NCBI GenBank assembly: GCA_017468365.1
Contig: JAFUIS010000006.1
Span: 1-44,124 of the forward strand
From: Oscillospiraceae bacterium
GTDB lineage: Bacteria; Bacillota; Clostridia; Oscillospirales; Ruminococcaceae
Length of the DNA stretch: 44,124 nucleotides
Direction of reading: 5' to 3'
Each line of letters begins with the position of its first letter. Positions within the stretch are counted from its first letter, which is position 1. Below, piece after piece: positions 47 through 2,866 of this stretch. Both the position numbers and the translations under genes were made by a program. The notes below the pieces were generated by a model. That model was not told the DNA's origin. It saw only the letters and a list, made by a program, of their open reading frames with translations, and made no database searches.

Positions 47-112
47 CTAGATGGCTCAGGCATCTACCCTAGATGGCCTAGCCATATACCCTAGATGGCT
101 CAGCCATATAGG
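47..112. repeat. Three tandem 22-bp repeats with internal dyad
   Basis: Three head-to-tail copies at 47-68, 69-90 and 91-112 with no spacer. Each begins CTAGATGGC and contains an ATGGCT-N-AGCCAT-like dyad (clean in copy 3, with mismatches in copies 1 and 2). The unit is close to two helical turns, so a dimeric protein would sit on one face of the DNA in all copies. They lie 12 bp beyond the stop of the leftward operon. Iteron-type replication origin, repressor array or partition site are all possible. There are no spacers, so this is not a CRISPR array. Confidence 0.75.
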
Positions 113-124
113 TAAATGGAGTAT

Positions 125-475
125 TTACTTTTTCTCTACATACATTATATCTTCTTTTGGTATCTCATAGAAAATCCAGTGATTAATACCTTTGCTTAAA
201 TCCTCAACTAAATACCCTTTTTCTTTTAATTTTACTTTACTTTTTTTAAATGTATCTTTACTGATACCAAACTCATTTAAGGCATCTGCTGGACTTACCG
301 CAAAAGTATAACCAGCCTAATTTTTAGCAAAGTAAAGCCAAACCTAAAACTCAGCATTACTTAAATCTTTCATAGCCAACTAAATGGCTTTTATATTTAT
401 TGTGGCATATAAATTATCTTTATTACAAGCCTCTTTTTTCACAGTTACTACATCTTGATTAGGAACAATAGTCAT
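125..475 (-). CDS. Winged-helix phage protein, TAG-recoded (3 internal TAG)
   Basis: Start ATG at 475 with AAGGAG nine bases upstream, inside the end of the preceding gene; stop TAA at 127-125; 116 codons. In-frame TAG codons fall at codons 32 (382-380), 44 (346-344) and 53 (319-317). Read as Gln they give LSNAEFQVWLYFAKNQ followed by AGYTFAVSPADALNEFG, which resembles the small winged-helix/replication-initiator-like proteins of Firmicute phages and plasmids. From memory, that family often has Q at the last of these positions. The recognition-helix region is ISKDTFKKSKVKLKEKGYLV (about residues 71-90). With the standard code only a 31-residue stub would be made. Function beyond DNA binding is not claimed. 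Confidence 0.85.
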
Positions 476-478
476 AAA

Positions 479-688
479 TCAAATCTCCTTCTCCATAAAT
501 CTTTTATATCTCTCTAATTGATTTTTTACTTTTTTATAAGCCTCTCTATACTCTTGGGTGTCTTCATAATAGTAATGGTCCCAATATGGAAAATCCTCAT
601 CTGTCTCAACTTTTACAAACTTTATTCCCATCTATAATAAATCGGCGGCAAATAAAGGGTGGCTCATTTTTACTAATTTCTTCTCCAT
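479..688 (-). CDS. Small hypothetical phage protein, TAG-recoded (1 internal TAG)
   Basis: ATG at 688 preceded by GGAGG with an eight-base spacer; stop TGA at 481-479; 69 codons. A single in-frame TAG at codon 19 (634-632) sits in the context LFAADLL-Q-MGIKFVKVETDEDF. The frame on both sides of the TAG has normal protein composition, and the gene continues to within four bases of the next start, so premature termination at 18 residues is unlikely. The C-terminal half is charged and probably helical (EYREAYKKVKNQLERYKRF). No family recognised. It is the middle gene of the leftward operon, and its end carries the Shine-Dalgarno of the next gene, suggesting translational coupling. Confidence 0.8.
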
Positions 689-757
689 TGTGGTTTCCTC
701 CTTCATAATATCAGTGTTAATTACAATTAATTCTAACTAAAAATAAAGTTGTTAGGC

Positions 758-919
758 TTACATCACTTCATTTTTCTTTTTTTCTAATAAATAAGCCTAT
801 ACACTTTCCCTAACTATCTGGGAAATAGAGGTCTCATACTTCACGCAATACTCCTCTAATTCTTTTATCTCTTGGATAGTTAATCTCACTTTAATATTTT
901 GGTCTTTATTTTCTTTCAT
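758..919 (-). CDS. Ribbon-helix-helix (CopG-type) regulator, TAG-recoded
   Basis: ATG at 919 with GGAGA about seven bases upstream; stop TAA at 760-758; 53 codons. The N-terminal strand IKVRLTIQEIKELEEYC followed by ETSISQIVRESV-Q-AYLLEKK is a typical ribbon-helix-helix domain: a beta strand (residues 9-14), helix A (15-27) and helix B (31-46). The in-frame TAG is codon 41 (799-797), inside helix B, where Gln, Lys or Arg is normal in CopG proteins. Truncation at residue 40 would remove the end of the helix needed for the dimer core. First gene of the leftward operon, so it may autoregulate it. Confidence 0.85.
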
Positions 920-1271: not shown

Positions 1272-1592
1272 ATGGCAGAGGAAATTAAAGAAGTTGTAAA
1301 GGAAAAAGAGGAAAAGGTTTATCCTGTCTATCCTGAGGTTCCTACTCAGACCCAAGATATTGTCAGCCAGTATGTTATTGACTATTGTGTAGCCAATAAA
1401 CAGGTTAAATGGCTCCAAGAGACAGCCAATAAGAAATATGTAGATAAAAACGGCAAAGAACAAAACTACAATTTCTTCCAGATTAGAAAAGAGTTCGTAT
1501 TGAAGTTTATGCCAGAACTTGACGGCAAAAAGACCGAGACTAAAAAAGTCACCCTTCTTGACAAAATTATGGCTCTTAAAGTTGAGGAGTAA
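1272..1592 (+). CDS. Hypothetical phage protein, standard-code readable
   Basis: 106 aa. The ATG at 1272 is chosen over the upstream in-frame TTG because AAGGAG (1257-1262) is nine bases before it. The N-terminal 20 residues are acidic and lysine-rich (AEEIKEVVKEKEEKVYPVYP); the rest is a compact basic domain with VANKQVKWLQETANKKYVDK and NYNFFQIRKEFVLKFMP. No family recognised. All seven Gln codons are CAA or CAG and the stop is TAA. It is followed after five bases by another gene on the same strand and is probably co-transcribed with it. Small, possibly a DNA- or protein-binding early phage factor, but that is a guess. Confidence 0.75.
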   Translation: MAEEIKEVVKEKEEKVYPVYPEVPTQTQDIVSQYVIDYCVANKQVKWLQETANKKYVDKNGKEQNYNFFQIRKEFVLKFMPELDGKKTETKKVTLLDKIMALKVEE

Positions 1593-1921: not shown

Positions 1922-2866
1922 TTATCTCTTTTTTCTAACTGGGTCTCCACTCTTCCTTACCTTCTTGGTAAGTTTTTCAAGTGTAGAGTGTTCTTGGTAA
2001 CTGTCTCTCATATCTTGGCCGTAAAGTCTAACATACCTTTTAGTCATAGTAATACTGCTATGGCCCAGTGCTGTTTGAAGTTTAAAGACATTACCATCAC
2101 TCTCAGCCCAGTTTCTCGCAAATGAGTGTCTTAATCCGTGGAGGTTATGTTGGTCAAGTCCTCTACTCTCACAGAACCTTGTAAATCCTATCCTAATAGC
2201 GTTATAACTGGCCTGTTCTCCATTCTTATCTGGAAACAAATACTCCTTTAACTCCCACTGGTCCATATAATACTTAATATCTCTCTCTAATGCTGGGGTC
2301 AATGGAATAATCTGGGCCTTATTGTTTTTAGTAGTTGTTAAAGTAATCTCTTTACTCTTAAAGTTAATATCATCTACCCTAACATTTCTTACTGTCTCGG
2401 TTCTATTTCCAGTAGCCAAAATCCAAACTGTAATAGCCCAAGACCTCCAAACACTAAAATTATCCTCATCTCTTGGTCTTTCCAGTAGGACAGTTAATTT
2501 ATCATCACTAAAATCCTTGGGGAGTTCTTCTTGCTGTTTTAGTTCTTTCATCTTGAACTCTTCTATGTAGTCCCTATCCATACACCAATGGAAGAATACT
2601 CTAATATCTCTAATGTAGTGGTTAATGGAAGATATAGAGAGGTCTCTATTTCTCATTCTGCCTATCCACCTATACCATAAATCCTCATTAATGTCCTTGG
2701 TTGGCATATCCTCTACTTCAAACTCTTTAAGAAAACCATAAATAGTTTTCTCATAGTTATCCAGAGTTTTCCTTGATAAATTGTTTGCCAGTTTTTCAGT
2801 AAAGAACCCCTTAAAGCACTCCAATAATGTAGTCTCTCTTTTGGTTACTTGTTGCTTCCTTTTCAT
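1922..2866 (-). CDS. int: Tyrosine recombinase (phage integrase)
   Basis: 314 aa, ATG at 2866 with GAGGTG upstream. Residues about 11-110 form the SAM-like core-binding domain (SRKTLDNYEKTIYGFLKEF, then SINHYIRDIRVFFHWC). The catalytic domain carries the complete active site: Arg155 (ATGNRTETVR), Lys180 (TTTKNN), His243-x-x-Arg246 (LHGLRHSFA), His269 (LGHSS) and the nucleophile Tyr278 (TKRYVRL). Family role: site-specific integration and, with an excisionase, excision. It sits 144 bp from the junction with the tRNA gene, the usual position. All 11 Gln codons are CAA/CAG and it stops with TAA, so unlike the leftward operon it can be translated by the unmodified host. No arm-binding zinc domain is evident. 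Confidence 0.95.
   Translation of the reverse strand: MKRKQQVTKRETTLLECFKGFFTEKLANNLSRKTLDNYEKTIYGFLKEFEVEDMPTKDINEDLWYRWIGRMRNRDLSISSINHYIRDIRVFFHWCMDRDYIEEFKMKELKQQEELPKDFSDDKLTVLLERPRDEDNFSVWRSWAITVWILATGNRTETVRNVRVDDINFKSKEITLTTTKNNKAQIIPLTPALERDIKYYMDQWELKEYLFPDKNGEQASYNAIRIGFTRFCESRGLDQHNLHGLRHSFARNWAESDGNVFKLQTALGHSSITMTKRYVRLYGQDMRDSYQEHSTLEKLTKKVRKSGDPVRKKR

Follow-up and report, generated by a model that had tools for sequence, protein, structure and literature searches.

The three consecutive leftward genes at the beginning of the analysed DNA are interrupted by TAG codons only, and TAG behaves in this gene module, with near certainty on comparative grounds, as a codon for glutamine. 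We propose, with a probability of about 60%, that the three genes are a module gated by stop codons within an integrative mobile element, a module that would be decoded in trans, probably by the suppressor tRNA of a phage using genetic code 15.

Results and Discussion

Three genes interrupted by TAG

The window, which is the whole stretch of 44,124 nucleotides that was analysed, stands at the start of contig C25 in a genome of 1.86 Mb in 33 contigs (G000). Position 1 of the window is the first base of the contig, so the element is truncated there and 3 kb of it lie in the window. Its features are the following.

47..112, no strand: tandem repeats, three units of 22 bp whose core is near-palindromic (TGGCTNAGCCA-like), shortly past the 3' end of the winged-helix gene
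125..475, minus strand: winged-helix 'VPNQ' gene, 116 aa; TAG at 380-382, 344-346 and 317-319; end TAA
479..688, minus strand: DUF5659-like gene, 69 aa; TAG at 632-634; end TGA
758..919, minus strand: RHH (Arc/CopG-like) gene, 53 aa with TAG as glutamine; TAG at 797-799; end TAA
1272..1592, plus strand: uncharacterized gene in the standard code; ATG at 1272, program-listed TTG at 1263; end TAA
1598..1885, plus strand: uncharacterized phage-like gene in the standard code; phrog_33291, E 9.7e-7; end TAA
1883..1924, no strand: inverted repeat between convergent genes, 18-nt arms, 89% complementary
1922..2866, minus strand: tyrosine integrase of 314 aa in the standard code, free of TAG; Phage_integrase, E 4.5e-26; phrog_1, E 1.2e-44

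The initial annotation described the three leftward genes as broken solely by five TAGs, with no TAG at their ends and a good Shine-Dalgarno sequence before each, and the frames bear this out. The frames 919-758, 688-479 and 475-125 hold 1, 1 and 3 in-frame TAGs, with neither TAA nor TGA inside them. In these stretches the two remaining frames contain 5 to 16 stops apiece, each including both TAA and TGA. When the bases of 100-960 are shuffled, TAG makes up 24% of the stops, and the chance that five stops out of five are TAG is about 0.0009. Upstream of the three genes are GGAGA, AAGGAGG and GGAGAAGGAG, which are purine-rich and resemble ribosome-binding sites at each start. A table 11 gene listing (frames of at least 50 aa) finds in the three-gene region one 50-aa fragment only (479-631).

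The RHH protein matches the transcriptional repressor family phrog_876 (E 1.3e-8) and also RHH_1, under the cut-off (E 0.018). The match of the gene at 479..688 to DUF5659 (E 0.014) is likewise under the cut-off. The winged-helix protein displays a weak similarity to the replication initiation family phrog_428 (E 2.9e-4) and is likely a DNA-binding protein for replication or regulation. Its AlphaFold model, with the TAGs read through, has a mean pLDDT of 83, and blocks between residues 31 and 100, a segment that takes in all three TAG positions, reach 88-94. A fold search with this model gave no PDB match at E <=0.001; in the viral library a phage helix-turn-helix protein (E 1.5e-4) was the best of three such matches. 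The tandem repeats are possible iterons or an operator, and the inverted repeat looks like a two-way terminator. Family searches with the gene at 1272..1592, PHROGs included, gave nothing better than E 0.06. Twenty stretches from other contigs, which together make up about 15% of the genome, were examined by base composition and open frames and did not reveal the remainder of the element.

Relatives of the module are small integrative elements

Another species of the same genus (G007; SVMR01000008.1) carries the RHH, DUF5659-like and winged-helix genes in the same order, followed by a small gene whose product contains the motif PEYYxxMYLDGYTPEQI. In this relative, genes 2, 3 and 4 contain 1, 2 and 1 TAG and no internal TAA or TGA. 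The window gene at 479..688 aligns with gene 2, whose own TAG sits nearby. Because the TAGs in this second species lie at positions other than those in the window, the window TAGs are unlikely to be assembly errors, a doubt that the initial annotation had raised.

The small gene, called PEYY here, was scanned against one genome per species of 84,980 species and found at 30 loci; the same scan of viral_contigs gave one locus (L205). The loci are mostly labelled as MAGs of Oscillospiraceae and other Clostridia. Two short contigs are labelled Bacteroidaceae, perhaps through misbinning. The family names PEYY, KKKS (small and lysine-rich), MNTLK, MSKNE, R215 and HTH2 are working nicknames; MNTLK and MSKNE have no assigned function. 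The usual gene order is integrase, at least two copies of MNTLK, a replication-type gene, PEYY, KKKS, in some loci GIY-YIG or HNH, then MSKNE, SprT, resolvase, WYL and integrase. The replication-type slot is occupied by a winged-helix, HTH2, R215 or helicase gene, and the gene set varies by locus. In-frame TAGs, one to three per gene, occur in seven of eight GIY-YIG homologues, and six of these seven have two or three.

Direct repeats bound several relatives: 82 bp in L203, including a tRNA-Thr gene, 51 bp in L193 and in L182, and 69 bp in L195. Together with the integrase in the window, these ends mark the group as integrative; in the window itself no such ends were seen. From the integrated elements L193 and L203, ten proteins were scanned; they gave integrase, a resolvase-type match and proteins of no assigned function, and no head, tail or packaging match. 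Six proteins of the window, covering its 3 kb of the element, likewise gave no such match. The related loci are small integrative elements of gut bacteria with an integrase and often a resolvase and a WYL regulator. The term 'prophage operon' in the initial annotation is not supported, since no structural gene was seen in the 3 kb of the element that lie in the window or among the ten proteins scanned.

Two large frames were noted at related loci. One of 1095 aa (L089:749-4036, in G008) lies beside a winged-helix relative, with short repeats at 42-251, and presumably resembles Cas9. The other encodes a repetitive lipoprotein-like protein of 2304 aa (L087:3992-10906, in G093), within a related element or next to it.

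TAG is a sense codon in one module and a stop in its neighbours

Internal stops were counted as X in domain matches to two sets of families. The module set consisted of PEYY, KKKS, GIY-YIG, HNH, winged helix, R215, DUF5659 and RHH, and the control set of MNTLK, MSKNE, resolvase, WYL, HTH2, SprT and integrase. Three loci (L175, L189, L200) had been dropped before counting, being on the same contigs as L084, L174 and L087. Of the 37 loci searched, L085 had no module match, leaving 36. The relatives had been collected with an alignment that included TAG-bearing rows, and the stop counts treat all three stops alike. These family models replace an earlier all-against-all tblastn count (274 TGA, 180 TAA, 163 TAG), which mixed in antisense shadow frames.

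The module families gave 101 domain matches with 41 internal TAGs, no TAA and one TGA, with which PEYY of L188 naturally ends. In the control families, 175 matches held one TAG, three TAA and one TGA. The TAGs were distributed as 15 in 8 matches for GIY-YIG, 13 in 30 for KKKS, 5 in 15 for winged helix, 4 in 32 for PEYY, 2 in 2 for HNH, 1 in 12 for R215 and 1 in 1 for DUF5659. The 41 sites are distinct and spread over 18 loci. TAG is not required in the module, because the other 18 of the 36 loci carry none within the module domains.

As the end of a gene, TAG was found in 7 of 17 resolvase, 2 of 5 HTH2, 3 of 8 SprT and 6 of 26 integrase genes. Not every neighbour uses it commonly as a stop: it ends none of the 63 MNTLK and 20 WYL genes and one of 28 MSKNE genes. 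Since TAG was read through in the module genes for this count, their TAA and TGA ends hold by construction. Recoding of the whole element, as the initial annotation implied, is thus too broad: TAG is a sense codon in one module and still terminates neighbouring genes of related elements.

TAG behaves as a glutamine codon

Twenty-five TAG sites have a nucleotide-alignable relative with another codon at the same position. CAG is the commonest codon opposite, at 11 sites, six of which represent one column compared with L197; counted by column, CAG stands opposite TAG in 5 of 12. The remaining 14 sites show codons for other residues, namely GCC at five (one column five times), TCC at two, AAG at two, and CCA, AAA, TTG, GAA and TCT at one each. 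Close pairs are informative. L195 has TAG where L197 has CAG (95% identity over 183 nt), and L184 has TAG where L180 has CAG (96%). As a counter-example, L184 has TAG opposite TTG (Leu) in L180 at 99% identity. Among the residues opposite TAG columns, glutamine is enriched 3.0-fold, lysine 2.5-fold and glutamate 1.7-fold, and leucine, isoleucine, valine and glycine are depleted. The expectation that homologues would mostly show glutamine in the TAG columns holds, glutamine being the most enriched residue and CAG the commonest codon, though not exclusively, lysine and glutamate being common as well. Taken with the close TAG/CAG pairs and with the selection described below, the relatives give good support to the original reading of TAG as glutamine.

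Selection on the protein beyond TAG

The GIY-YIG and KKKS genes were compared in pairs; a pair was left out if its dS was saturated or if it had under 20 codons beyond TAG. Past the first TAG, dN/dS of GIY-YIG is 0.07-0.21 in 10 of the 11 pairs listed, all of which have TAG in both genes; the eleventh is near-identical and gives no ratio. The KKKS values scatter from 0.05 to 1.5, with 0.05-0.11 in the three closest pairs and up to 1.5 with L187. By the GIY-YIG ratios, the protein past TAG is under purifying selection.

The codon itself was followed in five diverged GIY-YIG genes, a set from which L121, being free of TAG, and one member of every near-identical pair had been removed. Glutamine-codon pairs holding TAG were TAG/TAG 13 times, TAG/CAG three times and TAG/CAA never. 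In the same genes the ratio of same to different codons is 41:40 for lysine and 46:49 for glutamate, the third bases being saturated. A single TAG column is conserved in six of the eight GIY-YIG genes. Because all 13 TAG/TAG pairs come from two columns, the pair counts are no more than a hint that the TAG codon itself is selected for.

It might be argued that the module genes are decaying pseudogenes and the TAGs nonsense mutations in dead genes. The elements are mosaic, and the integrase family has a decay-like pattern of one TAG, two TAA and one TGA over 31 matches. The module, by contrast, shows 41 TAGs against no TAA, its proteins are under purifying selection past TAG, one TAG column is conserved among most GIY-YIG genes, and the winged-helix fold is confident through three TAGs. 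Decay was rejected on the stop-codon bias and dN/dS, and retains only a trace of probability.

Related plasmids carry a TAG-containing arm

One sequence reached by searching with the GIY-YIG protein is pRGI00117 (HG796263.1), a 7,167-bp circular plasmid from an uncultured bacterium. We take the pRGI plasmids to be of rat gut origin. The replication gene of pRGI00117 and the next two genes are without TAG. An arm of at least six genes, including GIY-YIG and a terminase small subunit, has in-frame TAGs, two of them in the terminase gene (phrog_2538, E 6.7e-29). The layout of pRGI00100 (HG796260.1) is similar: its replication gene (phrog_4402, E 8.8e-30) uses the standard code, its terminase small subunit, a homologue of the first, contains one TAG, and a helicase-like frame contains five. 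When TAG is opened, the mean longest frame in the arm of pRGI00100 increases from 126 to 322 aa, as against 139 aa with TGA and 153 aa with TAA. Another TAG-bearing gene of pRGI00117 (L226:6804-7163) weakly matches an Rz-like spanin family involved in lysis (phrog_1152, E 0.0024).

Among 14 proteins from the two plasmids that were scanned with PHROGs, the terminase small subunit was the sole head or packaging match. A terminase small subunit without structural genes would be fitting cargo for a satellite. Packaging is suggested for the plasmids only, because the terminase has no match in the integrated-element loci.

Scans of viral_contigs gave, apart from the one PEYY relative, five distant GIY-YIG relatives. 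The terminase and the plasmid-borne helicase had no match there, and scans with the integrase and winged-helix proteins led to nothing useful. The winged-helix and DUF5659-like proteins had no match in phages. MT835509 was considered as a recoded helper and rejected, since its frames lengthen from 415 to 443 with TAG opened and to 442 with TGA opened, and it has no tRNA. No helper phage was identified.

The presence of phage-type genes such as GIY-YIG and the terminase small subunit would also be expected if the module genes were recent imports from code-15 phages, with the TAGs as a passive legacy. The module order is, however, conserved over many species, TAG/CAG differences arise within the module, and selection acts past TAG. 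We regard recent import as decidedly improbable.

The hosts should terminate at TAG

RF1 exceeds the cut-off in 14 of the 15 host genomes searched; the other is G772, the genome of L193 and L203. No tRNA with a CUA anticodon was found among the 44 RF00005 matches of G000 or the 47 of G007, all of which lie within stretches run through ARAGORN; 13 further genome stretches were used for the tRNA search only. A search with a CUA tRNA pattern, which would miss unusually shaped tRNAs, gave 20 matches in 16 genomes or records: 16 have an arginine-UCU motif (14 so called by ARAGORN), one is a leucine tRNA and three are not tRNA. None was found by ARAGORN in 32 loci or by Rfam in ten, nor in the direct-repeat-ended elements L193, L195 and L203. 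The two circular plasmids contain no tRNA at all. MAGs may be missing suppressor-bearing phage or plasmid contigs. With RF1 present and a CUA tRNA not found, a standard host should cut the module genes short.

A CUA tRNA candidate in G763 (L214) was rejected, being inside an oxidoreductase-like frame and not called as a tRNA. Unusual tRNA-like genes with the anticodon AAA and the loop CTAAAAA were seen at L098:970-1039 (G000:C3:143969-144038) and L193:2707-2780; in the G000 copy the acceptor stem is poor.

In 210 long host frames, from window positions 3101-44124 and 20 stretches of the host's own contigs, the stops are TAG 5, TAA 127 and TGA 78. The rarity of TAG as a host stop may ease the life of elements that read TAG. 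It would also be expected if the host lineage as a whole read TAG as glutamine. That reading was rejected because RF1 is present, because no CUA tRNA was found and because the host frames of the window become hardly any longer when TAG is opened; its probability is practically nil.

A further explanation is an ordinary recoded prophage with its own suppressor tRNA beyond the contig end, where the initial annotation had proposed to look for one. Recoded gut phages use their own suppressor tRNAs (PMC10879173), and the element in the window is cut at position 1. Against this explanation, no CUA tRNA was found in the three direct-repeat-ended elements, the two plasmids, the 32 loci or the two hosts checked tRNA by tRNA; TAG ends neighbouring genes of related elements; and no structural gene was seen among the proteins scanned. 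We consider it quite unlikely.

Alternatively, the gate may be leaky. A host tRNA-Gln would rarely read UAG, traces of protein would be made, and the TAGs would set a very low level of nuclease or regulator. The genome G000 has tRNA-Gln with CUG and with UUG anticodons, and TAG is retained over saturating divergence in two columns. On the other hand, the two or three serial TAGs of most TAG-bearing GIY-YIG genes would multiply the losses, and RF1 is present. A leaky gate is unlikely, though not far-fetched.

The simplest source of decoding for the module is another replicon, because the elements seem to be without their own means and the hosts should stop at TAG. We infer that the gate is one opened by phage.

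A possible mechanism

In a resident host with RF1 and no CUA tRNA, UAG would terminate translation and the module would be silent, while the element could still integrate and persist. A suppressor tRNA reading UAG as glutamine would arrive, most likely with a code-15 phage, and the module would then be translated. Its products would be small DNA-binding proteins, the winged-helix protein, and two small proteins of no assigned function, joined in some elements by a nuclease of the GIY-YIG or HNH type. In the related plasmids the TAG-written terminase small subunit could give the use of phage packaging. The element would sense the phage by its code, and would act either as a satellite that exploits the recoded phage or as a nuclease defence island that harms it. 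That this is a natural satellite or defence system, with the genetic code as an infection sensor and TAG-locked genes freed by the glutamine tRNA of a code-15 phage, is a tentative proposal, to which we give somewhat less than even odds.

Known phage satellites (PICI, P4-like) respond to helper proteins. The present elements are similar in their small size, integrase and replication-type genes, and the related plasmids bear a terminase small subunit; the trigger, in contrast, would be the genetic code of the helper instead of its proteins. Among nucleases, those of the T4 endonuclease II type are closest to the TAG-bearing GIY-YIG gene: it matches the endonuclease family phrog_1111 (E 9.4e-10), and T4-like endonucleases with 27-31% identity to it are among the 20 matches listed. 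The in-frame TAGs of the homologues set them apart from that type.

An engineered leak dampener reportedly works through amber codons. In the engineered system of PMC7969014 a suppressor tRNA dampens leaky expression in E. coli; the arrangement here appears to be natural, and the suppressor would come from elsewhere. The module resembles code-15 phages such as the crAss-like phages in having TAG as glutamine in chosen genes and the standard code in others; for two crAss-like phages there is peptide proof (PMC9523058). Recoded phages infecting Bacteroidota and Bacillota are known (PMC9523058, PMC10879173). The code-15 phages use suppressor tRNAs (PMC10879173), whereas the present cases are small integrative elements and plasmids, which showed neither a structural gene nor a CUA tRNA.

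In these papers, stop-codon recoding is described for phages using suppressor tRNAs, and here it occurs in integrated elements and plasmids. No report of recoded satellites, plasmids or integrative elements was found in the literature searched, a body that lacked the main survey of phage recoding (Borges 2022). The hosts should terminate at TAG, yet selection acts on the protein that they should not make. If infecting phages decode it, the genetic code would be a signal between mobile elements, and the reason why a phage gains or loses by recoding becomes testable. Ordinary gene calling fragments such genes, and in the public records HG796263.1 and HG796260.1 the annotation is broken where TAG was taken as a stop.
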